DNA of 64,000 bases from Streptomyces cupreus. GTDB taxonomy: Bacteria > Actinomycetota > Actinomycetes > Streptomycetales > Streptomycetaceae. The translations under genes and the position numbers were made by a program. The DNA is taken from NCBI RefSeq assembly GCF_014257025.1, contig NZ_JACMSF010000001.1:248001-312000 (forward strand), written 5' to 3'. Each line of letters begins with the position of its first letter. The first letter of the stretch is position 1. The notes under the pieces were generated by a model. That model did not search any database and was not told where the DNA came from. It saw only the letters and a program-made list of their open reading frames with translations. Positions 4,448 to 24,542 of this stretch are shown here, piece by piece.

Positions 4448-5938
<1,491 letters not shown>

Positions 5939-10558: not shown

Positions 10559-10623
10559 CACGCTGGTGGTCCCTTCGCCCCGGCCCGACCTGAGCGGCCT
10601 TCGTCGGGGAATCGGTGTCTGTC

Positions 10624-10682
10624 GCGCTCTACTAGCGCGCTCTAGTGCGAGTACGATGGCCCCTGTCCAAATGTCATGTCAA
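10624..10682 (-). promoter_or_regulatory. iolC promoter and LacI-type operator
   Basis: On the minus strand a TTGACA box (10682-10677) is followed 18 bases later by CATCGT (10658-10653) and then by CACTAGAGCGCGCTA and a second half AGCGC (to 10624). The operator contains the perfect palindrome AGCGCGCT and the wider dyad ACTAG-N6-CTAGT at 10631-10646. It lies just downstream of the -10 element, a position that blocks transcription. The same block recurs upstream of the lipoprotein gene (12885-12949). The adjacent divergent LacI regulator is the obvious ligand. Confidence 0.75.
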
Positions 10683-10748
10683 TAGCTTGTTGCCGGGGAA
10701 TTCCGAGAGCGCCCTTAGGGTGGGCCGCGTCGAAGGGTGGGTTCACAG

Positions 10749-11780
10749 GTGGATGCATCGGGCAGGCAGCGGCCCACGATGGCGGACGTCGCCGAGAAGG
10801 CGGGCGTCTCCCGCGCGCTCGTCTCGATCGTCTTCCGCGATCAGCCGGGGGCGAGTCAGGAGACCCGGGAGCGGGTGCTGCGGGTGGCCGACGAGATCGG
10901 CTACCGCCCCGACAACGCGGCCCGGCTGCTGGCCCGTGGCCGCAGCCGCACGCTCGGTGTGATGTTCACGGCCCATCAGACCTTCCACGCCGACCTGTTG
11001 GAGGGCATCTACGGCGAGGCGGAGCGGCTCGGTTACGACGTCGTGCTGTCCGCCACCGCGCCGGGACGCGGCGAGGCGAAGGCGGTCGAGTCACTGCTCA
11101 GCCACCGCTGCGAGGCGGTGATCCTGCTCGGTCCGGGCGCGGACGCGGCGGACCTCGACGCCCTCGGCGGACGTACCGCCGTCGTGTCGGTCGGCCGGCG
11201 GGTGCTCGGCGCCCGGGTCGACAGCGTCCACACCGCCGAGAGCAAGGGCATCCGCCAAGCCATGGACCACCTCGTCGAGTTGGGCCACCGCCGCATCGTG
11301 CACATCGACGGCGGCCGGGGCCCCGGCTCGGCGGAGCGACGCCGCGCCTACCGGGCCGCGATGCGCCGCCACGGCCTGGAGGACGAGCTGCGGGTCGTCC
11401 CCGGCGACCACACCGAGGAGTCCGGCATCGAGGCCGGCCGCCTGTTCCTCGCGGAACGGGACAGCGGCCGACCCCTGCCGACGGCGGTCCTGGCGGGCAA
11501 TGACCGTTGCGCGATGGGCCTGTTGATGGCGCTGACGCGGGCGGGCGTGGAGGTTCCGCGCGACTTGTCGGTCGTGGGCTACGACGACAGCCACCTCTCC
11601 CATCTCATGCCGGTCGGCCTCACCACGGTCCGGCAGGACGCGGTGCTCATGGCCGAGCACGCGGTGCGATTCGCCGTGGAACGCCTGGACGACCCGGACT
11701 CGGCGCCCCGGGAGGCGGTGCTGGACCCGAAGCTGGTGGTACGCGGGACCAGCGTGCCGCCGCCCGAGAAGCCGGTCTGA
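10749..11780 (+). CDS. LacI-family regulator of inositol catabolism
   Basis: A 343-residue LacI/GalR protein. The N-terminal helix-turn-helix and hinge read TMADVAEKAGVSRALVSIVF and ADEIGYRPDNAARLLARGRS. The remainder is a periplasmic-binding-protein-like effector domain with GLLMALTRAGVEVPRDLSV and VGYDDSHLSHLMPVGLTTV. It is divergent from iolC and convergent with the sugar-binding lipoprotein gene, both of which carry the same operator, so it is most likely the inositol repressor. I prefer the GTG at 10749 because GAAGGG lies at a better distance; GTG at 10737 would add four residues. Confidence 0.85.
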   Translation: MDASGRQRPTMADVAEKAGVSRALVSIVFRDQPGASQETRERVLRVADEIGYRPDNAARLLARGRSRTLGVMFTAHQTFHADLLEGIYGEAERLGYDVVLSATAPGRGEAKAVESLLSHRCEAVILLGPGADAADLDALGGRTAVVSVGRRVLGARVDSVHTAESKGIRQAMDHLVELGHRRIVHIDGGRGPGSAERRRAYRAAMRRHGLEDELRVVPGDHTEESGIEAGRLFLAERDSGRPLPTAVLAGNDRCAMGLLMALTRAGVEVPRDLSVVGYDDSHLSHLMPVGLTTVRQDAVLMAEHAVRFAVERLDDPDSAPREAVLDPKLVVRGTSVPPPEKPV

Positions 11781-11789
11781 GCTCTGCCC

Positions 11790-12794
11790 TCAGCGCGTCC
11801 CCTTCGCCGCGAACTCGGCGACCTGGTCGACGTTGTCCTTGGTGATGAACGCGGGCCCGGTCAGCACCGGGGCGGTTCCGCCGCCGCTGAAGTTGCCGTT
11901 GGTCCGGTACAGCCACAGGGCGTCGATGGCCAAGTAGCCCTGGAGGTAGGGCTGTTGGTCGACGGCGAACTCGACTGTGCCGCTCTGGACGGCCTTCACC
12001 AGATCCCTGCTGAGGTCGAAGGTCGCCACCTTCGACTCGGTGCCCGCGTCGGACACCGACTGCACGGCGGTCAGCGCGATGGGCGCGCCCAGGGTGACCA
12101 CCTGGTCGATCGAGGAGTCCTGCTTGAGCTTGGCGGTGATGGTCGACTTCACGGACGGCATGTCGGTGCCGTTGACGTACAGCGTGTCGGTCTTGCCGCT
12201 GAAGCCCTTCTTCAGACCGGCGCAACGGGCTTCGAGAGCGACCTGGCCCTGCTCCTGGATCACGCAGAGGGCGTGCTTGGCGCCGAGCTGGTCGAGCCGC
12301 TCGCCGAAGGCCTGGCCCGCGATGTTCTCGTCCTGCCCGAAGTACTCCAGCATGCCGAGGTCTTTCCAGTTGTCCAGGCCGGAGTTGAAGCCGACGACCG
12401 GGATACCGGCCGCCTTCGCCTTGGCGACCACGTCCTTCATGGCGTCCGGCTTGGCGGCGGTCAGCGCGATGCCGTCGACCTTCTGGTCGATGGCGTTCTG
12501 CACGAGGTTCGCCTGGGTGCCGGCGCTGGGGTCGCTTGAGTAGACGAGCTTGACGTTGTCCTTGGCGGCGGCGGCCTCGGCACCCTTGCGGACGATGTCC
12601 CAGAAGGTGTCGCCGGGGGAGGCGTGGGTGATCAAGGCGATCGTCATCCGGGGAGTGTCGGCCTTGCCCGCGGAGGCGTTGGCGGAGCCCTCCTCGGACT
12701 CCTTCCCGCCGGAACTGCTGGAGCAGCCGGCGACGAGGAGGGCGCCGACGAGGGCGGCGGCGGTGAGAGCGGCGGATCGGCGGTGTCTGCGCAT
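11790..12794 (-). CDS. Sugar ABC transporter substrate-binding lipoprotein, orphan
   Basis: A 334-residue ribose/inositol-type binding protein (Peripla_BP_4 fold) anchored as a lipoprotein. The N-terminus is a charged segment, then TAAALVGALLVAGCSSSSGG with the lipobox LVAGC at about residue 25. Later segments such as VDGIALTAAKPDAMKDVV and PVVGFNSGLDN are typical of type-I sugar-binding proteins. It carries the iolC-type operator in its promoter, which points to inositol or a related polyol as ligand. No permease or ATPase gene is adjacent: downstream is the convergent LacI gene, upstream an MFS gene. A GTG four codons upstream (12806) is an alternative start. Confidence 0.85.
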   Translation of the reverse strand: MRRHRRSAALTAAALVGALLVAGCSSSSGGKESEEGSANASAGKADTPRMTIALITHASPGDTFWDIVRKGAEAAAAKDNVKLVYSSDPSAGTQANLVQNAIDQKVDGIALTAAKPDAMKDVVAKAKAAGIPVVGFNSGLDNWKDLGMLEYFGQDENIAGQAFGERLDQLGAKHALCVIQEQGQVALEARCAGLKKGFSGKTDTLYVNGTDMPSVKSTITAKLKQDSSIDQVVTLGAPIALTAVQSVSDAGTESKVATFDLSRDLVKAVQSGTVEFAVDQQPYLQGYLAIDALWLYRTNGNFSGGGTAPVLTGPAFITKDNVDQVAEFAAKGTR

Positions 12795-12884
12795 GTCCCT
12801 GTGCACCTCGCTGTGCTGATGGGGGCGTGGATGTTGAGCGGGAGCCCGATGAGCCCTGGGGCGGGGAGATCCTGCAGGTGCGTA

Positions 12885-12949
12885 CTAGAGCGCTTTATTA
12901 GCGCGCTCTAGTGGCACGTACTATGAGTCCGCCCCAGAGGGATGTCAAC
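12885..12949 (-). promoter_or_regulatory. Promoter and operator of the sugar-binding lipoprotein gene
   Basis: The minus strand has TTGACA (12949-12944), a 17-base spacer and CATAGT (12926-12921). The operator follows immediately: an inverted repeat with arms ACTAGAGCGC at 12885-12894 and GCGCTCTAGT at 12904-12913. Aligned on the minus strand with the iolC operator, 22 of 24 positions are identical, starting CACTAGAGCGCGCTA. The match of both core promoter and operator indicates co-regulation with the inositol operon. Confidence 0.8.
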
Positions 12950-12992
12950 GGGTTTGTCAGGACGTCTCAACAAGGGGCTTGCGGGGGCCCGG

Positions 12993-14189
12993 TCAGCCTG
13001 TTGCCGCGTGCCGGGTCGCGAACCCGATGACGGCGGCGACGGCGGCGAGCACGGCGACGCTGGTCAGGGCGGTCGGCAGGGAGAACCACTCCGCCATGAA
13101 GCCGATCGCGGGCGGGCCGAGGAGCATGCCGCCGTAGCCGAGCGTGGAGGCGGTCGCGACACCGCTCGGTCCGGCGAGCGCGCCGGCGCGCTCGATGGCG
13201 ATCGGGAAGAGGTTGGCGAGACCGAGCCCGGTGACGGCGAACCCGACGAGCGTGGCCCACACGGAGGGTGTGAGCGAGCCGAGGAGCATCCCGGCGGCCG
13301 CGGTGGCACCACCGACGACGACGGTACGGGTGCGGCCGAGCCGCTGGAGCAGCGTCGACCCCGTCAGCCGCCCGAGCGTCATGGCGAGCGCGAAGCATGA
13401 GTAGCCCACGGCCGCGAGCCCCGGTGATGCATCCAGGTCCTGCTCGAGATGGAGCGCGCCCCAGTCGGCCATGGCGCCCTCGCCGTACGCCGTGCACAGC
13501 GCGATCAGCCCGAAGACGGTGACGAGTCCGCGGGTACGGCGGTCCAGGCGCCGCGGGCTCGTCTCCTGGGGCCGCGTTGCCTGGGGCGGTGCGATCCGCA
13601 GGAGCACGCGCCCCGCGAAGGCGGTGACCAGGAGTCCGACGAAGGTGAGGCCGAGCAGATGCCGCGTGGGGGAGAGGTTGCCGGCCACCAGCCCGCCAAG
13701 TCCCGCGCCCACCATTCCGCCCAGGCTGAAGGCCGCGTGGAAGCTGGGCATGATCGGCCGCTGGAGCGCGGTGACGAGATCGACGGCGGCGCTGTTGAAA
13801 GCGACGTTGATGCCGCCGTACGCGGCGCCGAAAACGAGCAGTACGGCGGTGAGGGCGGGGACGGAGTGGGTGAGCGGTGGCAGGGCGACGCTGAGGGAGA
13901 GCAGGACGGCGCAGAAGACGGTGACCGGATGGCTGCCGTAGCGACGGCAGAGCCGTCCGGTGAGCGTCATCGTGATCACCGCTCCTGCGGAGACACCCAG
14001 AAGCGCGAGCCCCAGGCTTCCGGCTGACGCGCCGACCTGCTCCTTGATCGCCGGGATGCGCACGACCCACCCGGCGAAGACGAAGCCGTCCATGGCGAAG
14101 AAGACGGTGAGGGCGATACGGAGGCGGGTGAGGTCGGTGGCGGTTCCCGGCACGACGTTGTGCGAGCGGGGTTTGTTTATTTGCGGCAC
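12993..14189 (-). CDS. MFS transporter, YbjJ-like
   Basis: A 398-residue major facilitator with about 12 predicted membrane segments. It shows FAMDGFVFAGWVVRIPAIKE in helix 1, the loop motif GRLCRRYGSHPV, and FGAAYGGINVAFNSAAVD with SFHAAFSLGGMVGAGLGG in the middle of the N-terminal half. These resemble the YbjJ/FucP-like subgroup, whose substrates are mostly unknown. The GTG start gives the shortest cytoplasmic leader. It lies upstream of the inositol lipoprotein gene on the same strand but is separated from it by that gene's own promoter and operator, so it is probably not part of the inositol regulon. Confidence 0.75.
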   Translation of the reverse strand: MPQINKPRSHNVVPGTATDLTRLRIALTVFFAMDGFVFAGWVVRIPAIKEQVGASAGSLGLALLGVSAGAVITMTLTGRLCRRYGSHPVTVFCAVLLSLSVALPPLTHSVPALTAVLLVFGAAYGGINVAFNSAAVDLVTALQRPIMPSFHAAFSLGGMVGAGLGGLVAGNLSPTRHLLGLTFVGLLVTAFAGRVLLRIAPPQATRPQETSPRRLDRRTRGLVTVFGLIALCTAYGEGAMADWGALHLEQDLDASPGLAAVGYSCFALAMTLGRLTGSTLLQRLGRTRTVVVGGATAAAGMLLGSLTPSVWATLVGFAVTGLGLANLFPIAIERAGALAGPSGVATASTLGYGGMLLGPPAIGFMAEWFSLPTALTSVAVLAAVAAVIGFATRHAATG

Positions 14190-14270
14190 AAAGTCAGGCT
14201 AGGTGGGGTGGGGTGATGGGGCAAGGGTGAGGTGGCACCCCCCTTTGGCTGCCACGCGGAGGGGTGGAAC

Positions 14271-14293
14271 GCCCCTGCTCCGGCAGCAGGGGC
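14271..14293. terminator. Hairpin terminator below the 2H phosphoesterase gene
   Basis: A perfect 9-base stem (GCCCCTGCT / AGCAGGGGC) with a 5-base loop lies 6 bases beyond the stop codon of the leftward 14299-14922 gene. There is no long T tract, as is common in Streptomyces. It probably ends that transcript before the MFS gene. Confidence 0.65.
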
Positions 14294-14298
14294 TTCCT

Positions 14299-14922
14299 TC
14301 AGCCGAGCGGCACGGTGGCGAAGGGCTCCCACTCGTACATCTGGTTGTCGCGGTGGATGACGATCAGCTCCGCGCTGGAGATGCGAGCTTGCGCTGGGGA
14401 GAGTTCCCTCCCGGCAAGTGCCTGCGCGATCGGCTCCGAAGGTCCGTCGCTGGAGCTGTACGCCACCGAGACGTGAGGTGTGAACCCTTCCGCCTTCTCG
14501 GGCACTTCGTTCAGGACGTCACCGATGGAGGCGCGGATGGAGTCCCGTACGGCCCGCACCGGAGCGTCCGGCTGGACGTGCAGGAGGACGGCCTCGGGGT
14601 CCAGGACTTCAGGCCCGATCTTGAGGTCGAAGGCCGGGATGGCGGCGAGGCGTGCAGCAGCAGCGTCAACGATGGCCTGGACGTCGTGTTCCTTCACGTC
14701 TCGCACGAAACCGATGCCCTGCATGGTCAGGTGCAGCCACTCGTCGGGGATCGGAGTGAGGACATCGCCCAGCGGTGCCAGAGCGGCCCGGTACTCGGCA
14801 GCGAGCCGGTGCACGTCGCCCTGGCCCTCGAACGTCAGATGCCAGGTGTAGAAGCGCCGGCCCACGCTCCAGCCGGGACGCCACCACCAGTGGTTGCGCA
14901 TGATCTCGGTGTGAGTCGTCAT
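14299..14922 (-). CDS. 2'-5' RNA ligase-like 2H phosphoesterase
   Basis: A 207-residue protein of the 2H phosphoesterase superfamily. The two catalytic H-x-T/S motifs are visible as EWLHLTMQGIGFV (about residue 63) and FTPHVSVAYSSSDG (about residue 150), at the spacing expected of LigT-like enzymes. Such proteins cleave or join 2',3'-cyclic phosphate or 2'-5' linkages in RNA or nucleotides; the actual substrate here is unknown. It starts 14 bases after the XRE-TPR regulator gene ends and is probably transcribed with it. A hairpin terminator lies just past its stop. Confidence 0.8.
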   Translation of the reverse strand: MTTHTEIMRNHWWWRPGWSVGRRFYTWHLTFEGQGDVHRLAAEYRAALAPLGDVLTPIPDEWLHLTMQGIGFVRDVKEHDVQAIVDAAAARLAAIPAFDLKIGPEVLDPEAVLLHVQPDAPVRAVRDSIRASIGDVLNEVPEKAEGFTPHVSVAYSSSDGPSEPIAQALAGRELSPAQARISSAELIVIHRDNQMYEWEPFATVPLG

Positions 14923-14936
14923 ACTTCGAGATCAAA

Positions 14937-16418
14937 TCAGGCAGAGGCTTCCCCTGGCGAGAGTGCAAGGTACCGCGGTGCGGAGTCCACGCAGAACTCT
15001 TCGATGGCGGCGCGTAGTCCGACCGCCGCTGTTCCCTGGGCGCTCGGTCGGCCCATCCCGCCGGACAGCTCATTCAAGCGACATGTGACGGGCGCCAGTC
15101 GGTGGTCGGGCGGGAGTGCGAGGACCGGTGCAAGGGCTTCCAGGGCGCCTTCAGCTTCGCCGTCGGCGAGGTGTGCCGCAGCCTGGCTGATGTGGATCTG
15201 TGCCTCTGTGCCGTACGCCCTGACACGCTGCACGGACATCAGGGAGAGGGCCCGGTCAGCTGACCGTAGTGCGTCCGCCGGGTGGCCGATACGCAGTTGT
15301 ACTGCGGCGGCGTAGTTCTGCTGCCGCGCTGGCTGGCAGGCGAAGATGCCGCCGACCTCGTCTTCACCGCTCACGCCGTCACGAGCATCGTCGGAGCGAG
15401 CAAGCGCGGCCATGGCCTCGTCGTGCGCCCCCAGTTCCGACCAAGCGTCGGCTTCCTGGCAGGCGAGCAGGACGCCGACGGTGCCGGAAGTTCGGAACGT
15501 GGCACCGCGACGGGCGAAGCTGATGGCGTCTCTCAGGCGTCCGTCCCAGAAGGCCACCTTCGAGCGGGTGGACAGCACCCAAGCGCGCAGGTCGTTGTAG
15601 CCCGCGAGTTCAGCGCACAGCCACGCTGTTCGCCCTTGGGTGTCCGCATCCCGCAGCTGGCCCAAGTCCGAGGACATCCACGCGAGCAGCCCACACAGAT
15701 AGCCGGCGGCAACGTAAAGGTCGGCGGCTTGGCGCGGGTACTGGTGACCTTCGAGCAGGGTGAAGACGCGGTCGCGGAGTGCTCGCGTGCGAACGAACAA
15801 GGCGACGGGGTCAGATGTGAGGTAGTCCGAAGCCAGGCCTCGCATCTCCGTCATCAGCTGTTCCAGCGCGATGTCGCCGACGTTCGAGGCCTCTGCCCAC
15901 TGCGCCCACGACGCCGATTCGTCCGCAGCGAGGCGTACAAGTTCGGTGCCCGATGGGTCGGCCGACAAGGAAGGAAGCTGCGGTGTGGGCGCCGGCGAAG
16001 CCGGTTCGACGTGCGCCGACTGGCTGTTGATGATGCGGACGTCGGCGTCCGGCAGGGAGCGCCGGTCGTCAAGGTCCAGGAGGTCGTGCGCACAGCATCC
16101 GAATGCCTCGGCCATGGCATGCAGCACGGCGATGCTGGGCCGCCGCGAAGAAGGGCCAGGCCACTTCTCCCACTTTCCCACCAGGGATGCGTCAGCGGCG
16201 ACAGCTCCGCCGGGGTGCTGGAGGCTGGCCTGAGTGATGCGGTCCGCCGTCTCCTGGAGAGTCCAGCCGCGGGCGTGGCGCCAGGCTTCACGCGGACGCA
16301 TGCGGTAGCGGGTGCGCATTTCGATGGCGATGTCGGCGACCGTGCAACCGGCGGCGGTCATGTCGTGGCGGAGGGCGTCTCGGTCGGCTTTCGACCCAGG
16401 CTTGTTGGGGCCGTTCAT
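14937..16418 (-). CDS. XRE-family regulator with TPR-like C-terminal domain
   Basis: A 493-residue Streptomyces-type regulator. The N-terminal region RYRMRPREAWRHARGWTLQE begins a Cro/C1-like helix-turn-helix that ends around SLVGKWEKWPGPSSRRPS. The remaining ~350 residues are alanine- and leucine-rich helices typical of tetratricopeptide-like ligand domains, for example AADLYVAAGYLCGLLAWMSS and YAAAVQLRIGHPADALRSAD. It is divergent from the 16699-19942 gene set, suggesting it controls that set, possibly in response to a peptide. The ATG at 16418 has AGGAG nine bases upstream; an ATG ten codons earlier is less well placed. Confidence 0.8.
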   Translation of the reverse strand: MNGPNKPGSKADRDALRHDMTAAGCTVADIAIEMRTRYRMRPREAWRHARGWTLQETADRITQASLQHPGGAVAADASLVGKWEKWPGPSSRRPSIAVLHAMAEAFGCCAHDLLDLDDRRSLPDADVRIINSQSAHVEPASPAPTPQLPSLSADPSGTELVRLAADESASWAQWAEASNVGDIALEQLMTEMRGLASDYLTSDPVALFVRTRALRDRVFTLLEGHQYPRQAADLYVAAGYLCGLLAWMSSDLGQLRDADTQGRTAWLCAELAGYNDLRAWVLSTRSKVAFWDGRLRDAISFARRGATFRTSGTVGVLLACQEADAWSELGAHDEAMAALARSDDARDGVSGEDEVGGIFACQPARQQNYAAAVQLRIGHPADALRSADRALSLMSVQRVRAYGTEAQIHISQAAAHLADGEAEGALEALAPVLALPPDHRLAPVTCRLNELSGGMGRPSAQGTAAVGLRAAIEEFCVDSAPRYLALSPGEASA

Positions 16419-16446
16419 CGGCAAGCTCCTGCGCGGCGTCGTAGAC

Positions 16447-16464
16447 ACACGGTAGCGGCCGTGT
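16447..16464. promoter_or_regulatory. Inverted repeat in the divergent regulator promoter region
   Basis: ACACGG (16447-16452) and CCGTGT (16459-16464) form a 6-base dyad with a 6-base spacer, 30 bases before the start of the XRE-TPR gene. Its place between the divergent genes fits an operator for that regulator. No protein binding can be inferred from the sequence alone. Confidence 0.35.
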
Positions 16465-16502
16465 ACCCCTCCTGTGTGAGCGTCAGCCGAAGGAGCTCCG
16501 CG

Positions 16503-16538
16503 ATGCTGCCCAACAGCGGATCCAAAAGGCCGAGTTAG
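16503..16538 (+). CDS. Possible 11-residue leader peptide
   Basis: An ATG at 16503 begins an 11-codon frame encoding MLPNSGSKRPS and ending in TAG. It has an unusually good ribosome site, GAAGGAG, eight bases upstream, better than that of most real genes in the window. It precedes the unknown gene at 16699 by about 160 bases and is divergent from the XRE-TPR regulator. It could be a regulatory leader ORF or a chance frame. I see no rare-codon or repeated-amino-acid signature of attenuation. Confidence 0.3.
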   Translation: MLPNSGSKRPS

Positions 16539-16698
16539 CCCAGCTCACAGGCGTTCTGCCGGTCCAGGAAAGTTGGTCACCGGTGCCCGTGACGCTAACG
16601 ACCCTCCTTGGAACCGTAGGAGGCCTACAGATCAGACCCGGCGGCCGCGCGAACGGCCCCGGGAGTGGCCAACGCTCGAATCAGGCAGGAGCGTCGAC

Positions 16699-17241
16699 AT
16701 GACGAACCATAGGACCCTCAGAGGGGACTGCACAGCATCAAGTCCGTCGCCCACCGAGACGGTTCAGGAGTGGCTCGCCTCGGCACACGCCTCGCCCGCC
16801 GCAGTGCACCGTGAGTGGGACAGCGAGACCCGGCTCGCCCTGATCCCGCTGGGGAAGCTCTTCGACGCGGTCCGCATCTCCGAGAGCGTCGTTCACAGCG
16901 TGGCCGGAACCGCCGAGCCGTCCACCGTGAACGGTTGGCTCGGCTGGAGCTTCAACGGCGGCCCGGTCATCCACGACCCCGCCGGCCGCCGCTACTACGC
17001 CCTCGTGCCGCCCGGCACCGCCCCGGACTGGCGAGCGCCCGCCGCCGCCTGCCTCGGCGATGGCACCTATCTGGGCGTGCCGCGTACCGATCTGACGGAG
17101 CTGGAGGAGCACGCCTCGGGCTCGTACTGGGCAGTGCCCCTCACCCGGCCGGGCTGGCTGTGCAGGACGGCCGATGTGCTGACGTTCGCCATGGTGGCTG
17201 GCTGCCTGACCCGCGTGGACGACAGCGAGGCCGAGTCGTGA
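16699..17241 (+). CDS. Hypothetical protein, first gene of the DUF6415/radical SAM set
   Basis: A 180-residue soluble protein with no signal peptide or membrane segment. A central block reads FNGGPVIHDPAGRRYYALVP and LGDGTYLGVPRTDL. I recall similar blocks in uncharacterised Streptomyces proteins, some resembling reduced primase-polymerase N-terminal domains, but I cannot assign a function. The ATG at 16699 follows CAGGAG at good distance. Its stop overlaps the GTG of the DUF6415 gene (GTGA), so the two are translationally coupled and likely act together with the downstream radical SAM and methyltransferase genes. Confidence 0.7.
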   Translation: MTNHRTLRGDCTASSPSPTETVQEWLASAHASPAAVHREWDSETRLALIPLGKLFDAVRISESVVHSVAGTAEPSTVNGWLGWSFNGGPVIHDPAGRRYYALVPPGTAPDWRAPAAACLGDGTYLGVPRTDLTELEEHASGSYWAVPLTRPGWLCRTADVLTFAMVAGCLTRVDDSEAES

Positions 17242-17738
17242 CCTCGATCGACCCCCCTGCCACGAACGACGCCCCGCCGGTGGACATCGCCACGATGCGC
17301 GCGAGCGTCGCCCAGGTCCTCCCGCCCGAGGTGACCCCCACCGACCGGGCCACGCTGGAGACGCTGACCGATACCCTGCGCCGCGGCATACAGCTGCTCA
17401 TCCCCGAGGTTGAGCGGGCCGCCGCGAAGCAGCCCGCCGACGACATCCCGCGCTACGTGGCGCTCGCCTGCGTCCGCGAGGCCCGCGGCAAGCTGGACGC
17501 CCGCCCCCTGCTGATGCCGTCCGACGCCGCCCCGTACGTGCGCAAGCTCGGCCGGTCGCTGCTGGCGCTGTGCGATCACTACATTGCGCTGACCGGCGTC
17601 CGCGTGTGTGTGGTCTGCGACCAGTCGATCAGGCCGGGCGAATCGACGCAGCCGTACGACCAGGGCAGCCAGTCCGGAGGGTCGGCCGTCTCCGGCCGGA
17701 TCCACGAGGGCTGCGTCAACGCCGTCCGCCTGCGCTGA
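17238..17738 (+). CDS. DUF6415 family protein
   Basis: A 166-residue acidic protein resembling DUF6415, a family repeatedly found beside natural-product or peptide-modification genes in Streptomyces. The core shows TLRRGIQLLIPEVERAA, YVALACVREARGKLDARP and YVRKLGRSLLALCDHYIAL. The C-terminus has a zinc-knuckle-like pair CVVCDQSIRPGE and EGCVNAVRLR. The GTG start overlaps the previous stop. Function is unknown; the cysteines suggest metal or nucleic-acid binding, which is inference only. About 190 bases separate it from the radical SAM gene. Confidence 0.7.
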   Translation: MTSIDPPATNDAPPVDIATMRASVAQVLPPEVTPTDRATLETLTDTLRRGIQLLIPEVERAAAKQPADDIPRYVALACVREARGKLDARPLLMPSDAAPYVRKLGRSLLALCDHYIALTGVRVCVVCDQSIRPGESTQPYDQGSQSGGSAVSGRIHEGCVNAVRLR

Positions 17739-17928
17739 CTGGCGCCGCCCCGCCCCGGCGAAGAGGGGTCCCACGGCGACCGCAGGGTCAGGGTCGCGCC
17801 CACCACGTCTCTCCCGCCGGAGGTCCGCAAGCCTGCGGCGGGACGGGTCTCCAAGACGTCCGCCCCGGCTCCCCAACCCTGGACAGGCCGAGCAGTCGGG
17901 GCGGGGTCTCTTCCGACGAAGGGGAATC

Positions 17929-18812
17929 ATGACCACTCCGACAGTTGCAGGGATCCGCTCCGTGGAGCTGGAGATCACCGGTCGCTGCCAGCTGAAGTGC
18001 GGGCACTGCTGCACCAGCTCCGGCCCCAAAGCGCCCGCCGGGACGATGACCTGGCAGGACTGGCTCGACGTCAGCACGGACATCGCCGAAGTCGGCATCC
18101 CCGCTGTCCAGTTCATCGGCGGTGAACCGACCCTCGCGCCGGACCTGCCCCAGTACATGGACCACGGCCTCAGCCTCGGCCTGAACGTGGAGGTGTACTC
18201 CAACCTCAGGCACATCCGGCCGCAGCTGTGGGATACGTTCCAGCGGCCGGGCGTGTGTCTGGCCGCCACTTCTACAGCGACCAGGCACAGCAGCACGAGC
18301 AGATCACCAACGGGCCCGGCAGCTACCGGCGCACCCGCGAGAACATCGCCGAGGTGGTCCGGCGGGGCATCCCTTTGCGCGTCGGCATCGTCGAGGTCCT
18401 GGAGGGCCAGCGTGTCGCTGAGGCTCAGGAGCAGCTGCGGCACTTGGGCGTGACGAGGATCCAGGTCGACCGGGTCAGGAAGGTCGGTCGTGCCGCCGCA
18501 CCGGATACGTCCATCCCGAGCACGTCCGAGCTGTGCGGCAACTGCTTCCGTCACCGCATGTCCATCTCCCCGGACGGGCAGGTGTCCGGCTGCATCCTGT
18601 CGAGGTTCCTCGTCGCCGGGAACGTCCGCGAGCAGCGTCTCGCCGACATCCTTGTGAGCGAGGAGTGGCAGCAGCTGACGGATGCCGTGCCGATGCCGCG
18701 CATGGCGTGCACGCCTGACGACTCCGGAGACTGTGACCCGGCCAACACGGAGGCGTGCGACCCTGCCTATTACGCCCCGGCTCCCGCACCGATCCTCGGA
18801 GTGACCGCGTGA
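17929..18812 (+). pseudogene. Radical SAM/SPASM protein, frameshifted
   Basis: The ATG at 17929 follows GAAGGGGA and opens a radical SAM domain. C20, C24 and C27 form the CxxxCxxC cluster motif in TGRCQLKCGHCC, followed by QFIGGEPTLAPDLPQY. Near base 18265, after codon ~111 (FQRPGVCLA), the frame is lost and runs as unrelated sequence to a stop at 18453. The proper continuation resumes in the next frame with FYSDQAQQHEQITNGPGSYR. It goes through a SPASM-like cysteine region (CGNCFRHRMSISPDGQVSGC) to the stop at 18812. A one-base deletion (or two-base insertion) accounts for it. It is either a true mutation or a sequencing error, since both halves look otherwise intact. Confidence 0.8.
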
Positions 18813-19942
18813 ACTGGAAAGACCACGCCCTGGACTTGGCCGACCGCGTCACCCACCGCACCTCCCGGTGGCGTGGACCCGTCTCGTACACGCCCCGGCA
18901 TCTCTTCGTGCCGCAGTGGTGGGAGCGCGAAGGCGAACAGTGGACCCTGCGTGAGCCGCTCACCGACACCGACTGGTACGCCGCTGTCTACGACGACCGC
19001 TCCCTGATCACCCGGGTTGGCGCGCTGCACGCGGACCGCGCCAAGTCCGGCGACCACCCCACGGGCCGGCCGACGTCGTCGGCCACACTGCCAAGCCTCG
19101 TGGTGCGCATGCTCGACCACGCCCGGATCGACGACGGCGACGAGCTGCTCGACGTGGGCACTGGCAGCGGGTACGGGGCAGCGCTCGCCGCGCAGGGGCT
19201 CGGCGATGCCTCGGTGACGAGCGTGGACGTCGACCCGTACCTCGTCGAGGCCGCCCGCGAGCGCCTCGACCTGGCCGGCCTGCACCCCACGCTGGAAGTG
19301 GTCGACGCGACCGGACCACTCCCTGCCCGCCGCGGCAAGTTCGACCGCATCGTGGCGACGGTCGCCGTGCGCAGCGTCCCGGAGAGTTGGCTTGCGGCCC
19401 TGTGTGTCGGAGGCCGTCTGGTCACCACGATCGCGGGGACATCGCTGTTGGTGACCGCGGAGAAGCGGGCGGATGGCAGCGCAGTGGGCCGCGTGGAATG
19501 GGACCGTGCCGGGTTCATGCACGCCCGGCGCGGCGACGACTACCCGCCCGGTGCGACCAGTCTGCTCGCGACGGCGCACGACCTGGACGGTGAGGACGTC
19601 ATGACCAGCCCGTACCCGGTGGTCGACGTCGCCAACGCCTGGGACCTCGACTCCATGCTCGGTATCACCACGCCGGGCATCGAGCACTCCTACCGCGAGA
19701 ACGGCGAGCGGCGCACGGCCGAGATGGCGCACGCCGACGGCTCATGGGCGCGCGCTGTCACGGCCGACGACGGGCGCACGGTCGTCCACCAGGGTGGACC
19801 GCGCCGCCTGTGGGAGATCCTCGACAGCCTGCGCGCCTACTGGCTCCAGCATGGCGAGCTGCCGGTGCGAGGCGTCCAGGTGCTCATCACCCCCGAGGGT
19901 CAGACGCGCCTTGCCCGCGGGAAGTGGCGCGCGGTGCTCTGA
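18809..19942 (+). CDS. PIMT-like SAM-dependent methyltransferase
   Basis: A 377-residue methyltransferase related to protein-L-isoaspartate O-methyltransferase. The N-terminus has YTPRHLFVPQWW and YDDRSLITRVG. The SAM-binding core is DDGDELLDVGTGSGYGAALAA, with the downstream acidic loop SVDVDPYLVEAARERL. The ~150-residue C-terminal extension (from about LLATAHDLDG onward) is typical of the versions associated with ATP-grasp or lanthipeptide RiPP systems, where they modify peptides rather than repair proteins. The GTG start overlaps the radical SAM stop (GTGA). Absence of a general housekeeping context supports a specialised substrate, which is inferred. Confidence 0.8.
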   Translation: MNWKDHALDLADRVTHRTSRWRGPVSYTPRHLFVPQWWEREGEQWTLREPLTDTDWYAAVYDDRSLITRVGALHADRAKSGDHPTGRPTSSATLPSLVVRMLDHARIDDGDELLDVGTGSGYGAALAAQGLGDASVTSVDVDPYLVEAARERLDLAGLHPTLEVVDATGPLPARRGKFDRIVATVAVRSVPESWLAALCVGGRLVTTIAGTSLLVTAEKRADGSAVGRVEWDRAGFMHARRGDDYPPGATSLLATAHDLDGEDVMTSPYPVVDVANAWDLDSMLGITTPGIEHSYRENGERRTAEMAHADGSWARAVTADDGRTVVHQGGPRRLWEILDSLRAYWLQHGELPVRGVQVLITPEGQTRLARGKWRAVL

Positions 19943-19999
19943 GCGCGCCCCCTGATCGGCCCCGCTTGTCTGCTTCCCCCGTGGCGGATGGGCGGGGTC

Positions 20000-20224
20000 T
20001 CATCGCGGCGTTGGGTTTGTGCCGACCCGGGTCGTGAGCGGCCCGTCGAGGACGTCCGACATCCGGAGCAGGTCGCCGAGGCGTGGGTCAGCCTGGCCGG
20101 ATTCGATGCGCTGGATGTGGGCCCGGCTCAGGCCGATGGCCTCGCTGAAGCGATCCTGGGTACAGCCCGGGGCGACACGGACGTCGTCGCCGATGAGTTC
20201 GCCCAGCTTGCGGCGCCGCTTCAT
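20000..20224 (-). CDS. Small XRE-family DNA-binding protein
   Basis: A 74-residue protein consisting almost entirely of a Cro/C1-type helix-turn-helix: GCTQDRFSEAIGLSRAHIQR then IESGQADPRLGDLLRMSDVL. It converges with the PIMT-like gene and lies downstream of the methyltransferase gene on the same strand. The ATG start gives MKRRRKLGELIGDD. Proteins this small act as simple repressors or as the antidote half of toxin pairs. I see no partner toxin next to it, so its target is unknown. It is short but the HTH is convincing. Confidence 0.7.
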   Translation of the reverse strand: MKRRRKLGELIGDDVRVAPGCTQDRFSEAIGLSRAHIQRIESGQADPRLGDLLRMSDVLDGPLTTRVGTNPTPR

Positions 20225-20313
20225 GATCCAAAAGGTCCCGGAGGTGATGTCCCTGCGCGAGCACACCCCGCGGCGGGCCCTGCCCAGCGCGGCCTGGACC
20301 GTGTCGCCCGTGC

Positions 20314-21162
20314 CTACGACGCCCGGGCGTCGACCGTCCAGCAAGCGGCGGTGAAGCGGACTTCCGTGCCCTGTACATACGGGTCGAAGGCGGCGCGGAC
20401 CGTCTCGATTACGCGTGGCCGAGTGTCTTCGTCCACGTCGGGGAGGATCAGGCCGAGCGGGCCGAGTCGGGTGAAGTAGCCCACCAGCTCGCTCTCGGGC
20501 AGGGTGCAGGACAGTTCGACCGGCCGGATGTCGATCTCGGACCACCCGCTCTTTGTCAGGATGTCGCGGATCCTGTCCGGGTCCGCGAAGGCGAACTGGC
20601 CCGGCCCCTCCGGTCGTCGGGCGGGGAGGTTCGGCACGAGGGGCGCCGCGGCGCGTTCGGCCGTCGTCATGAACGGATTCTCCTCGGCGCCTCGCCAGGC
20701 GATGAACCGCAGCCAGGCCTCGTCCTTGGCGGCCCGCCGAAGGTTCGCGAAGGCTCGGACGGAGTCGGTGAAGAACATGACGCCCAGGCGCGAGATGACG
20801 GCGTCGAAGGCGGCGGGTTCGAACGCGTGATGTTCCGCGTCGGCCAGGATGAAGGACGCCGCCTCGCCCGCCCGTGCGACACGCTCCCGGGCGGCGGTGA
20901 TCATCGGCTCGGAGATGTCGATGCCCACGGCATGACCGGTGGGACCGAGCCGCCGTGCGACGGCCAGCGTGGTGCTGCCGGTGCCGCAGCCGACGTCGAG
21001 CACGTGGCCTCCGCGCCCGGCGGGCACCCTCTCGACGAGCAGTTCCTCCAACGGCCTGAGCATTCCGTCCAGCAACTCCTGGGTCTCGACCCAGGCGTGG
21101 CCGGCTGCCCGCCAGCGGGCCGCCTGATCGTCGTCGGCCAGGTGTTTCGCGTCCATGATCAT
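20314..21162 (-). CDS. Class I SAM-dependent methyltransferase
   Basis: A 282-residue methyltransferase of the UbiE/COQ5-like group. Motif I is GGHVLDVGCGTGSTTLAVA, with the acidic loop AVGIDISEPMITAARER and motif II region LADAEHHAFEPAAFDAVISR. It shares a 68-base divergent promoter region with a MerR regulator, and a MerR-type operator sits within the spacer of its own predicted promoter (TTGACC at 21226-21221). It is probably activated by that regulator in response to a small molecule or metal and may detoxify it. Substrate is unknown. A second ATG two codons in is an alternative start. Confidence 0.82.
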   Translation of the reverse strand: MIMDAKHLADDDQAARWRAAGHAWVETQELLDGMLRPLEELLVERVPAGRGGHVLDVGCGTGSTTLAVARRLGPTGHAVGIDISEPMITAARERVARAGEAASFILADAEHHAFEPAAFDAVISRLGVMFFTDSVRAFANLRRAAKDEAWLRFIAWRGAEENPFMTTAERAAAPLVPNLPARRPEGPGQFAFADPDRIRDILTKSGWSEIDIRPVELSCTLPESELVGYFTRLGPLGLILPDVDEDTRPRVIETVRAAFDPYVQGTEVRFTAACWTVDARAS

Positions 21163-21203
21163 CTCCTGTGCTTGCCATCAGCGGGTGTGGATGACAGCGT
21201 GCT

Positions 21204-21226
21204 ACTTCAAGTCGACTTGAGGTCAA
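21204..21226 (-). promoter_or_regulatory. MerR-type operator/promoter between methyltransferase and merR genes
   Basis: The plus strand reads ACTTCAAGTCGACTTGAGGT (21204-21223), a dyad with a perfect core CAAGTCGACTTG. On the minus strand it follows TTGACC (21226-21221), so the dyad fills the -35/-10 spacer, as at MerR and SoxR targets. It sits only a few bases upstream of the MerR start codon, so the same site could set both expression levels. Confidence 0.7.
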
Positions 21227-21230
21227 GAAG

Positions 21231-21722
21231 ATGACAGACCTGGACATCGGTGAGGTGGCGCGACGCGCGGACGTTCCCGCCTCGACCCTGCGGTTCTATG
21301 AGGAAAAGGGGCTGATCGCCTCGACCGGCAGGCGGGGCCTGCGCCGCCAGTACGATCCCGCCGTACTGGAGCGCCTCGCGCTGATCGCGTTGGGGCGTGC
21401 CGCCGGGTTCTCCCTCGACGAGATCGCGCGCATGTTCACACCGGACGGGCAGCCACACATCGACCGCCAGATGCTCGCGTCCAAGGCGGAGGAGTTGGAG
21501 ACACGGATCCGCGAACTGGGCGTCCTGCGTGACTCCCTTCGGCACGCCGCCGCCTGCCCCGCACCGAGCCACCTCGAATGCCCCACCTTCCGCCGCCTCC
21601 TCAAGGCCGCGGCGTCCGGCGCTGTCGCCACACCGAGGAGGCGGGCTCCCGGGGCGGCCACACCGAGGAGGCGGGCTCCCGGGGCGGCCGCACCGAGGAG
21701 GCCGGCTCCGGGGGCGGGGTGA
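21231..21722 (+). CDS. MerR-family regulator with a repeat-encoded tail
   Basis: A 163-residue MerR protein. The N-terminal winged helix reads IGEVARRADVPASTLRFYEE then KGLIAS and RRQYDPAVLERLALIALGRA; a dimerisation helix follows (RQMLASKAEELETRIREL). Cysteines at AACPAPSHLECP near residue 110 could bind metal or sense thiols. The last ~32 residues are three near-copies of ATPRRRAPGA, encoded by a 30-base tandem repeat, and look disordered and basic. It is divergent from the methyltransferase gene. The start is an ATG with only a weak AAGAAG ribosome site. Confidence 0.85.
   Translation: MTDLDIGEVARRADVPASTLRFYEEKGLIASTGRRGLRRQYDPAVLERLALIALGRAAGFSLDEIARMFTPDGQPHIDRQMLASKAEELETRIRELGVLRDSLRHAAACPAPSHLECPTFRRLLKAAASGAVATPRRRAPGAATPRRRAPGAAAPRRPAPGAG
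21627..21716 (+). repeat. 30-base tandem repeat, three units, in the MerR C-terminus
   Basis: Units at 21627-21656 and 21657-21686 are identical; the third (21687-21716) differs at a few positions. Each encodes ten residues, ATPRRRAPGA or AAPRRPAPGA. Being a multiple of three, unit number can change without breaking the frame. The near-identity of the first two copies suggests recent duplication. Confidence 0.9.
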
Positions 21723-21939
21723 TTCCCGCACGCTCGCAGGCGGTTCAGTCGCCGCGGCCCCTTCCGAGGAGGCGGTGCGCGTGCGACGTAGATCATCATT
21801 ACGTTGAGTGAGGGCATGTGACGCCTGAGAGCCGTGCGCCGTCCTCGTGGCACCGCGTCCGTCGGCTGACTGTGCGGCCCCCGCCCTTGGTGCGACGCTG
21901 GAGAGGCAGGTATCCGCCGAGGTGACTCGGGAGGGCGCG

Positions 21940-23418
21940 ATGGGACGTGACGTGCCGGCCCTGGTGTTCACGCGGGAGGACCGCCGTCGGTACCGGGAGA
22001 AGATGCACACCTGCCTCGATGTGCTGGCGCACATGCTGCGCGAGTCGAGCTTCGAGAGTGAGCGCCCCCAGGTCGGTCTGGAGATCGAGCTCAATCTGGT
22101 GGACGACGACGGGCTGCCGGCGATGCGCAACACCGACGTGCTCCAGGCCATCGCCGACCCCGCCTGGTCGAGCGAGCTGGGACGCTTCAACCTGGAGATC
22201 AACATCCCGCCCCGGCGGCTGACCGCCGGTGGCCCCTACGCCTGGGAGCAGGAGATCCGTGACGCGCTCAACCACGCCGAGGAACGCGCTTCGGCCGTGG
22301 GCGCGCACCTCATCATGATCGGCATCCTGCCCACCCTGGGGGAGGCGCACGTCGACGAGACCGCCCTGTCCGGCGATCCGCGCTACCGGCTGCTCAACGA
22401 GCAGATCTTCGCGGCGCGCGGCGAGGACCTGCGGATCACGGTGGATGGCGTGGAGCAACTGTCGACGTACGCCGACACGATCACCCCCGAGGCCGCCTGC
22501 ACCAGCACCCAGTTCCATCTGCAGGTCTCGCCGAAGGATTTCGCCGACTACTGGAACGCGGCCCAGGCCGTCGCCGGCGTACAGATCGCCCTGGCCGCGA
22601 ACTCGCCCTTCCTCTTCGGCCGGGAGCTGTGGCGCGAGACCCGTATCCCCCTGTTCGAGCAGGCCACCGACACCCGGCCCCAGGAGATCAAGGCCCAGGG
22701 CGTACGGCCCCGGGTGTGGTTCGGGGAGCGGTGGATCACCAGCGTCTTCGATCTCTTCGAGGAGAACGTGCGCTACTACCCGGCGCTGCTGCCGCTGTGC
22801 GACGACGAGGACCCGCAGAAGGCGCTCGACAGCGGCGGTGTTCCCCAGCTGGGCGAACTGACGTTGCACAACGGCACGATCTACCGATGGAATCGCCCCG
22901 TCTACGCCGTCACCGACAGCGGCCCGCACCTGCGCATCGAGAACCGCGTCCTGCCCGCAGGACCCACCGTCGCCGACATCATCGCCAACGGCGCCTTCTA
23001 CTACGGCCTGACCCGCGCCCTCGTCGACGAGGACCGGCCGGTCTGGACGCGCATGTCCTTCACGGTCGCCGAGGAGAACCTCCACACCGCCGCCCGCGAC
23101 GGCATCGACGCCCGTCTGTACTGGCCCGGCACGGGCGAAGTGCCGGTCACGGAACTGGTGTTGCGGCGCCTGCTGCCCCTGGCCCATCGGGGCCTTGAGC
23201 TGGCCGGCATGGACGCGGCGTGGCGCGAGCCCCTGCTCGGCATCATCGAGCAGCGCTGCGTCACCGCCCGTAACGGCGCCCTGTGGCAGGCGGAGACGGT
23301 TCACCACCTGCAGAAGGCCGGCACCCCCGACCGGGGCGAGGCACTGCGGCAGATGACCCAGGCGTACATGGACTACATGCATCTGAACGCACCCGCACAC
23401 ACCTGGCCCGTGGACTGA
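21940..23418 (+). CDS. Glutamate-cysteine ligase-like (GCS2/YbdK family) protein
   Basis: A 492-residue protein of the carboxylate-amine ligase superfamily. ATP- and glutamate-binding features include QVGLEIELNLVDDDGLP (the first Glu residues bind metal), FNLEINIPPRRL, TSTQFHLQVSPKDFADYWNA and NGTIYRWNRPVY with HLRIENRVLPAGPT. The family includes EgtA and gamma-glutamylcysteine synthetases; the amine substrate here is unknown and no mycothiol or ergothioneine genes are adjacent. I prefer the ATG at 21940 (GGGAGGG upstream, MGRDVPALVFTREDRRRY) to an upstream ATG whose leader is not family-like. Confidence 0.82.
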   Translation: MGRDVPALVFTREDRRRYREKMHTCLDVLAHMLRESSFESERPQVGLEIELNLVDDDGLPAMRNTDVLQAIADPAWSSELGRFNLEINIPPRRLTAGGPYAWEQEIRDALNHAEERASAVGAHLIMIGILPTLGEAHVDETALSGDPRYRLLNEQIFAARGEDLRITVDGVEQLSTYADTITPEAACTSTQFHLQVSPKDFADYWNAAQAVAGVQIALAANSPFLFGRELWRETRIPLFEQATDTRPQEIKAQGVRPRVWFGERWITSVFDLFEENVRYYPALLPLCDDEDPQKALDSGGVPQLGELTLHNGTIYRWNRPVYAVTDSGPHLRIENRVLPAGPTVADIIANGAFYYGLTRALVDEDRPVWTRMSFTVAEENLHTAARDGIDARLYWPGTGEVPVTELVLRRLLPLAHRGLELAGMDAAWREPLLGIIEQRCVTARNGALWQAETVHHLQKAGTPDRGEALRQMTQAYMDYMHLNAPAHTWPVD

Positions 23419-23429
23419 CCCCGACGGCC

Positions 23430-24542
23430 TCAGCCGGTGATCCGTCCTCTCCACTCCTCCACGGCCGTCAGCGGAACGCGGGCCGGAGGCTCCGCCGAGG
23501 TCGTCAGCTCGATGCGGCGGCCCTCGGCCGACGAGCGGAGCAGCGCGCTCATCGTCTCCAGCACGTGCAGGGCGAGTTCACCGTTCGCGCGGGGCGACCG
23601 CCGCCCGTCGGCGGTGACGAAATCGAGGAGGCCCACGCCGCGGGCGCCACTGACGTAGCCTGCCGACGGTGGGAGCGTGCGCCACTGTGCGGCGCCGAGT
23701 TCGAAGAGCCGTATCTCTCCGCCGAAGCCGTTCGGATCCGGAACCGTGAGGGTTCCCGTCTCGCCGTGGACCTCGATGGGCGCGGCCGTGGTGGTCACGC
23801 CGTCGAAGCTCGTCGTGATCGTCGTCAGGGTCCCGCCCAGGTGCTCCAGCACCCCGGAGACATGGCTGTCCACCTCGACCGGTATCCGCTCGCCCGCGCG
23901 CGGTCCGGAACCGATGACGCGCTCCGTGCGCAGCCGGCTCGAGGCCCCGATCACGGCGCGCACCGGACCCAGCAGGTGGATCAGGGACGCGAGATAGTAC
24001 GGGCCCATGTCCAGCAACGGACCACCCCCGGCGGTGTAGTAGAAGTCCGGGTGGGGGTGCCAGCGTTCGTGTCCCGGGGTGACCAGTGTGGCCGAGGTGA
24101 AAAGGGGGCGGCCGATGGTTCCCGCCTCCACAACCGCCCGCGCCGTCTGGATCCCGGTGCCCAGGACGGTGTCCGGCGCACACCCCACCCCCACCCCCGC
24201 CTTCGCGGCGGCCTCCAACACCGCATGGGCGTCAGGGAGGTTGGCGGCCAGCGGCTTCTCCCCGTAGACGTGCTTGCCGTGGCGTATGGCGCCGAGGGCG
24301 ATCTCGGCGTGGGCCGCGGGGACGGTGAGGTTCAGGACCGTGTCCACGTCCGGGCTGCTCAGCAACTCCTCTACGGACAGCGCCCGGACGCCCGGCAGTT
24401 CGGCGGCGACCGCGGCCGACCGTGCGGCGTCGAGATCGGCGACCGCGGTGACGCGTAGGGCGGGATGGCCGACCAGCGTGTCCAGGTACGCGCGGGAGAT
24501 GACTCCGAGCCCTACGACGCCGATGCGGTGCGCGTCGCCCAC
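23430..24542 (-). CDS. Gfo/Idh/MocA family oxidoreductase
   Basis: A 370-residue NAD(P)-dependent dehydrogenase. The Rossmann motif IGVVGLGVISRAYLDTL is at the N-terminus, the active-site motif HVYGEKPLAANLPDA near residue 92, and YYTAGGGPLLDMGPYYLASL covers the substrate-binding helix. The GTG start at 24542 overlaps the ThuA gene by 31 bases. The in-frame sequence further upstream is non-coding. Pairing with ThuA is common in actinobacterial disaccharide or keto-sugar pathways. The sugar oxidised cannot be named from sequence. Confidence 0.85.
   Translation of the reverse strand: MGDAHRIGVVGLGVISRAYLDTLVGHPALRVTAVADLDAARSAAVAAELPGVRALSVEELLSSPDVDTVLNLTVPAAHAEIALGAIRHGKHVYGEKPLAANLPDAHAVLEAAAKAGVGVGCAPDTVLGTGIQTARAVVEAGTIGRPLFTSATLVTPGHERWHPHPDFYYTAGGGPLLDMGPYYLASLIHLLGPVRAVIGASSRLRTERVIGSGPRAGERIPVEVDSHVSGVLEHLGGTLTTITTSFDGVTTTAAPIEVHGETGTLTVPDPNGFGGEIRLFELGAAQWRTLPPSAGYVSGARGVGLLDFVTADGRRSPRANGELALHVLETMSALLRSSAEGRRIELTTSAEPPARVPLTAVEEWRGRITG

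Follow-up and report, generated by a model that had tools for sequence, protein, structure and literature searches.

We favor, with moderate confidence, a reading of the radical SAM (rSAM)/SPASM gene and the PIMT-like, PAMT-type methyltransferase gene that adjoins it as a RiPP-like system in which the precursor peptide is fused to the maturase as the C-terminal tail of the rSAM protein. The observations are the tail itself, the statistics of its motifs, the duplication of its modules, its conservation, its low-confidence structure prediction and its linkage to PAMT genes. The precursor of 249 published rSAM-PAMT clusters is missing (PMC10787088); this reading suggests where it may be and is directly testable. 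If it is true, an entire architecture escapes genome mining based on separate precursor genes, and the fused tail would provide both a substrate and a handle for copurifying the modified product and its enzyme. We found no earlier report of an enzyme-core fusion among radical SAM RiPPs in the openly licensed PMC literature.

Organization of the locus

The window, i.e., the whole stretch of 64,000 nucleotides of Streptomyces cupreus DNA that was analysed, belongs to contig C1, and the genome measures 9.4 Mb (features in Table 1). Two GTGA overlaps are present, one between U180 and DUF6415 (17238-17241) and one between the rSAM and methyltransferase genes (18809-18812), whereas a gap of 190 bases lies between DUF6415 and the rSAM gene. 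The original prediction was therefore right about the overlaps but not about three rightward genes coupled in a row: the genes are joined two and two. Its divergent large TPR regulator was recovered as a leftward NsdA-family gene, and its radical SAM/SPASM and PIMT-like methyltransferase genes were recognized by PF04055, PF13186 (both above their cut-offs of 29.5 and 21.5 bits) and PF01135. The 2H phosphoesterase encoded at 14299-14922 had been left unnamed.

Table 1. Coordinates of the features of the locus in the window.
Feature	Positions	Strand	Matches and remarks
2H phosphoesterase / 2'-5' RNA ligase-like protein	14299..14922	-	PF13563 72.7 bits (cut-off 27); context, not core
NsdA-family TPR-like regulator, weak HTH	14937..16448	-	NF053720 129.7 bits (cut-off 75); context
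U180, exchangeable front module	16699..17241	+	Pfam, NCBIfam: 0 matches
DUF6415 protein, exchangeable front module	17238..17738	+	PF19979 87.2 bits (cut-off 27.5)
Radical SAM gene, N-terminal part with CxxxCxxC	17929..18270	+	PF04055 37.6 bits
Radical SAM gene, C-terminal open frame: SPASM and tail	18228..18812	+	PF13186 34.3 bits
Cys-X-Pro tail, proposed fused core peptide	18708..18809	+	19-residue module = 18708-18764
PIMT-like (PAMT-type) methyltransferase	18809..19942	+	TIGR04188 264.1 bits; PF01135 66 bits

The ten remaining genes predicted between 8728 and 24542 match families involved in transport, regulation and sugar metabolism, as well as ordinary methyltransferases and, with a weak match, glutamate-cysteine ligase. 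As had been reported, ATP-grasp, LanB and YcaO genes are lacking: no match was found among the locus genes and these ten others, so that an ATP-grasp ligase, the mark of graspetides, was absent from all 16 genes scanned in this part of the window (8728 to 24542). The suggested domain search of the 180-residue protein U180 likewise returned no Pfam or NCBIfam match. DUF6415 was considered as a described peptide factor and rejected, since the term was met in one unrelated paper.

The rSAM gene of the window is frameshifted. The CxxxCxxC motif lies in a frame (from 17929) that differs from that of the SPASM part (18228-18812), and the profile match, which is split over the two frames, places the switch at about 18258-18273. 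Because of this frameshift, the rSAM-PAMT pair is probably silent in this genome, unless the frameshift is an assembly error. Broken rSAM copies were also found at L049, L064 and L143. At L049/L204 (genome G088), about 1.45 kb splits the rSAM gene between the SPASM part and the tail, and the tail and the methyltransferase are kept downstream of this interruption. A remnant of a second rSAM-PAMT pair was observed on another contig of the S. cupreus genome (L200; C196, about 3490-4094), which consists of the C-terminal part of an rSAM gene with two tail units and of a truncated methyltransferase gene. By eye, the genes adjoining this remnant resemble transposase pieces.

Conservation of the gene pair

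The conserved unit is composed of two genes, rSAM/SPASM and PAMT, while the regulator, U180 and DUF6415 can be exchanged. Of 199 genomes of the genus, evenly drawn from a larger set, 45 carry a relative of the C-terminal part of the rSAM (E <= 1e-15). Only two gene clusters, rSAM (61) and methyltransferase (41), were present in more than 16 of 72 loci, which comprised 57 places in genomes of the genus, 14 places on plasmids (14 of the 31 records with an rSAM match, two of the 14 without annotation) and the window. Among the best 80 of 431 confirmed relatives, a sample that leans to the query's own kind, the methyltransferase lies directly downstream of the rSAM gene in 72 loci, and the linked genera include Streptomyces, Kitasatospora, Embleya, Streptosporangium, Sphaerisporangium, Planomonospora, Frankia and others. 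U180 was found in 7 of the 98 PAMT-linked rSAM loci other than the window, DUF6415 in 11, the NsdA-type regulator in 5 and the 2H protein in 3. One of four groups of HTH regulators was detected in 77 of the 89 PAMT-linked loci with at least 4.5 kb of upstream sequence. The co-occurrence of the four genes as one system, as first envisaged, does not hold, since U180 and DUF6415 are both present at only 2 of these 98 loci. The view of the locus as a poorly described modification system is retained in part: the peptide-modifying reading of the rSAM and PIMT-like enzymes is supported, the four-gene unit is not, and the rSAM-PAMT pair has been published before as an orphan.

The front genes also occur with other payloads. 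DUF6415 has four copies in this genome, and U180 precedes it at two further loci, L196 and L197. The payload that follows is a 38-residue Gly/Pro/Asp-rich ORF (4699-4815) with a PIMT-like methyltransferase gene in L196, and two genes for proteins of 145 and 141 residues in L197. The L196 ORF (contig C2) resembles an unannotated type I pamtide precursor. DNA homology between the window and both loci covers U180 and DUF6415 and ends at 17803; with L197, it returns at 17856-17905 and 19949-19997 (88-90% identical), on the two flanks of the rSAM-methyltransferase payload in the window and of a different payload in L197. This loss and return of homology on both sides suggests an exchange of cassettes, with these two segments as possible borders. 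The window also aligns with L055 at 87% DNA identity from 14303 to 17246, stopping at the start of DUF6415.

Other gene arrangements were observed around the pair. A conserved block of phosphotransferase, NAD(P)-binding and P-loop genes (the last weakly HprK-like) lies directly upstream of it at L053, L056, L098 and L101, and a second, larger radical SAM gene, which overlaps a dTMP-kinase gene, is located downstream of it at L104 (7611-9742).

Domains and predicted structure

The body of the rSAM protein comprises about 265 residues. In L107, the single-module protein of Streptomyces griseoviridis JCM 4250, the radical SAM match begins at residue 23, which leaves no room for an N-terminal RRE, and the SPASM match extends to residue 264, immediately ahead of the tail. 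At E <= 0.001, the radical SAM core was detected in 48 of 48 members of one alignment (A3) and SPASM in 44 of 48. The AlphaFold2 confidence of the body is mostly above 90 in L107 and L170, and it drops below 50 at residues 269-303 of L107 (except one) and 268-357 of L170 (except three). The tail is probably disordered, judging from these models, although low confidence does not prove disorder when the models contain no Fe-S clusters.

SkfB is the closest solved fold (Z 24.5, 251 aligned residues, 25% identity) and also the top match by sequence (84.3 bits), followed by the folds of SuiB (Z 22.3), BlsE (21.2) and the viperins (about 20). SkfB and SuiB are RiPP maturases and BlsE and the viperins act on small molecules; since the scores of the latter come close behind, the fold alone is no proof of a peptide substrate. 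L107 fell below the cut-offs of the curated models of sactipeptide maturases (StsB, 56.1 vs. 625; SkfB, 45.7 vs. 300), and none of the 25 NCBIfam models among the matches listed for it passed its cut-off. The methyltransferase is of the extended RiPP-associated type: its match covers positions 4-362 of the 363 of TIGR04188 (ATP-grasp peptide maturase system methyltransferase), with a score that lies under the cut-off of 380 bits.

Composition of the Cys-X-Pro tails

All 130 intact rSAM relatives end in a variable tail with at least one Cys-X-Pro (CxP) unit, the minimum being the single unit of L085, and the alignment of rSAM proteins places this tail after the SPASM part. These proteins are 98 PAMT-linked and 32 other members, obtained from 144 pooled sequences, 134 of them distinct, after dropping four broken ones (L049, L064, L143 and L152). 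Eight of the 72 loci of the first set are outside this pool: the window, L059, L086, L087, L090 and L092, which are broken or partial, together with L076 and L103, whose starts were not assigned. The tail of L103, outside the count, holds CAPNDDS, which fits the Asp pattern described below.

The tail cysteines belong almost exclusively to CxP units: 358 of 361 in the 98 PAMT-linked tails and 164 of 179 in the 32 tails without PAMT. By comparison, CxP units account for 1 of 249 body Cys across the first 37 proteins linked to PAMT and, in a control of 26 other SPASM proteins from 80 genomes of the order, for 1 of 139 Cys within the C-terminal 110 residues (29 counted, leaving out L228, the window itself, and L229 and L230, with a wrong anchor). 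The number of tail Cys ranges from 2 to 9 in PAMT-linked proteins and from 2 to 10 in other members. Two tail Cys, C269 and C277 of L036, are invariant in a broad alignment of 27 rows (A2).

The motif C.P.{0,6}D[SGT], a CxP unit followed within six residues by Asp-Ser, Asp-Gly or Asp-Thr, was found in 98 of 98 tails with PAMT and in 10 of 32 without. The corresponding Fisher p of 1.5e-17 overstates the evidence, because the pattern was chosen after the tails were seen and because, according to the tree, PAMT linkage may have arisen just once (one change, support 73/97). The association between Asp and PAMT may represent one evolutionary event. A link of partner and tail through many independent events is not supported, as the tree needs one change only. 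In PAMT-linked tails, D[SGT] sites become more numerous as the number of Cys grows (rho 0.52); the tails without PAMT show no such trend.

Modules and their duplication

The tail of the window (18708-18809) consists of one module (CTPDDSGDCDPANTEACDP) and a spacer-like end. The 19-residue module CPPDDSGDCDPANTEACDP is identical in nine loci, and pairs of loci with identical modules and bodies 45-55% identical differ at 2 to 14 of the 57 bases of the module, all of them synonymous. At least two CxP-Asp units, based on a narrower pattern, were found in 15 of 130 tails. Three modules are present in L170 (Streptomyces sp. CB01881) and L175 (Kitasatospora griseola), where they are linked by Ala/Pro-rich spacers ending in LGG or LGA, and the tail of L169 (Kitasatospora sp. 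MAP5-34) presents a different CxP unit, then MGG and one module. L201 has two modules and L113 only one, with bodies that are 87% identical, and this duplication therefore looks recent from the sequences. L113 belongs to a clade of 12 rows with L036 and L108, the closest matches of the window.

A module identity of 0.781, against 0.559 for the body, is inflated because the search pattern fixes positions. At the seven positions free of the pattern, mean identity is 0.537 (1485 pairs), which does not support a module more conserved than the enzyme body (0.559); by this comparison of sequences, conservation of the tail matches that of the folded body without exceeding it. Position 14 of the module is Thr in 53 of the 55 loci with a canonical module.

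Search for a separate precursor

Six-frame clustering identified no conserved small ORF beside the pair, and the upstream translations available for part of the loci contained no conserved precursor candidate. The ORFs in the gaps of the window and in ten plasmid gaps included neither a separate precursor nor a short ORF similar to those of type I pamtides or imiditides. Only about 50-80 bases are free upstream of the rSAM gene in three annotated plasmid records. The tail module was searched across 295 genomes and yielded 24 matches, 22 of which fall in an rSAM or methyltransferase context, which led us to reject a separate precursor bearing the module; the other two, both in genome G111, are weak and lack rSAM or methyltransferase genes. 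The original prediction had stated that no precursor was visible. This holds for a separate ORF in the gaps examined, but the Cys-X-Pro tail that closes the rSAM frame (18708-18809) was overlooked: the precursor is probably fused to the rSAM protein rather than absent.

Proposed mechanism and alternative explanations

The core peptide would be the flexible C-terminal tail, with its Cys-X-Pro units and conserved Asp-Ser/Gly/Thr. The rSAM enzyme may modify its own tail in cis, or that of a partner subunit, most plausibly by cross-linking Cys residues in the manner of sactipeptide maturases. The PAMT, whose gene immediately follows, would then methylate the conserved Asp, leading to aspartimide or isoaspartate, as expected from characterized PAMTs. 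The product would be released by a putative protease, and this order of steps is itself presumed. We think it reasonably likely that the mechanism amounts to a borosin-like fusion of enzyme and core built on a radical SAM maturase, with the chemistry suggested by analogy. More tentatively, and with chances that we put a little short of even, these proteins might form a large actinobacterial family of self-modifying rSAM maturases with C-terminal cores of one to three modules and interchangeable tailoring partners encoded downstream: PAMT for tails with Asp-Ser/Gly, with an APH-like kinase or different proteins serving the remaining tail types.

The main alternative is that the tail is an extension of SPASM that binds an auxiliary Fe-S cluster or another metal, and that the substrate is found elsewhere, as a separate peptide, a protein or a small molecule. 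The tail presumably occupies the position where SPASM proteins carry a second cluster motif, it starts right after the SPASM match that ends at residue 264 of L107, and its two invariant Cys (C269 and C277 of L036) could be cluster ligands. CxP tails in relatives without PAMT (164 of 179 Cys) also argue against a fused core. We consider a metal-binding tail rather unlikely, however, given that the number of tail Cys varies from 2 to 10, that whole modules are duplicated, that residues other than Cys (Asp and Thr) are kept and that the tail is of low confidence in both models.

It is less probable still that the PAMT repairs isoaspartate damage at the Asp-Ser/Gly of a tail with another role. 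Asp-Ser/Gly in flexible segments are hot spots of isoaspartate formation, and the methyltransferase belongs to the PIMT superfamily, but its near-full-length match to TIGR04188 assigns it to the extended RiPP-associated type, and a repair function would not call for an Asp preserved in 98 of 98 tails whose remainder is remodelled. A single modification system formed by U180, DUF6415, rSAM and methyltransferase under the XRE-TPR regulator appears the most doubtful of the three: the genes share a strand and two GTGA overlaps, and U180 and DUF6415 also precede the type-I-pamtide-like ORF and PIMT-like methyltransferase of L196, yet both genes accompany only 2 of the 98 other PAMT-linked loci, and the DNA homology that the window shares with further U180-DUF6415 loci of the genome ends shortly past DUF6415.

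Returning to the fused core peptide, other tail types are found with other partners. An APH-like kinase, labelled from the PLSDB name of a similar neighbour and from reading of the sequence (no Pfam match over its cut-off), is the partner at 13 distinct loci without PAMT (L065, L066, L068, L070, L071, L074, L078, L080-L084 and L089), and the rSAM proteins of these loci form one clade (100/99). The tails of this clade end with Cys-X-Pro-Gly or similar, Ser/Thr and a last Cys-X-Pro. It is conceivable that the kinase might modify the tail of its rSAM protein. Partner proteins of 106-119 residues, of two kinds, occur at five other loci without PAMT. These tail types fit partner-specific tailoring, which is only a lead.

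Comparison with known systems

SkfB and other maturases of sactipeptides, whose mark is a Cys-to-alpha-carbon thioether in the product, share the radical SAM/SPASM fold with the proteins described here. SkfB is longer, at 412 residues against a body of about 265 plus tail, and its precursor is a separate peptide.

According to the 2023 pamtide paper, 249 two-gene rSAM-PAMT clusters exist for which neither a neighbouring precursor nor a substrate was found (PMC10787088); the pair is thus known and its substrate open. The loci analysed here are likely the same clusters; both have adjacent genes (overlapping at 18809-18812 in the window) and no neighbouring precursor gene. Whereas that paper found no precursor or substrate, the rSAM protein's own tail is proposed here. 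The words "radical" and "rSAM" are absent from the main text of a 2026 review of aspartimide RiPPs (PMC13001092).

PAMTs act on linear peptides rich in Pro, Gly and Asp or on cyclised peptides (PMC10787088, PMC13001092, PMC11285071). They methylate Asp, which leads to aspartimide and isoaspartate. Imiditide enzymes can use linear substrates, but a cyclised or hairpin form is required by most PAMTs (PMC11285071, PMC13001092). Type I pamtides and imiditides resemble the proposed system in that a PAMT acts on the Asp of a flexible, Pro/Asp-rich peptide encoded adjacently, but they possess a separate precursor of their own of about 45 residues and no rSAM (PMC10787088, PMC13001092). The precedent for a fused core is provided by borosins of types I-III (OphMA), in which the core peptide is fused to the modifying enzyme; in contrast to the radical SAM/SPASM protein here, that enzyme is an N-methyltransferase, and types I-III are fungal (PMC11285071, PMC8429565). 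The modular tail occupies on the rSAM protein the same in-frame C-terminal position as the borosin core, whose role it would share.
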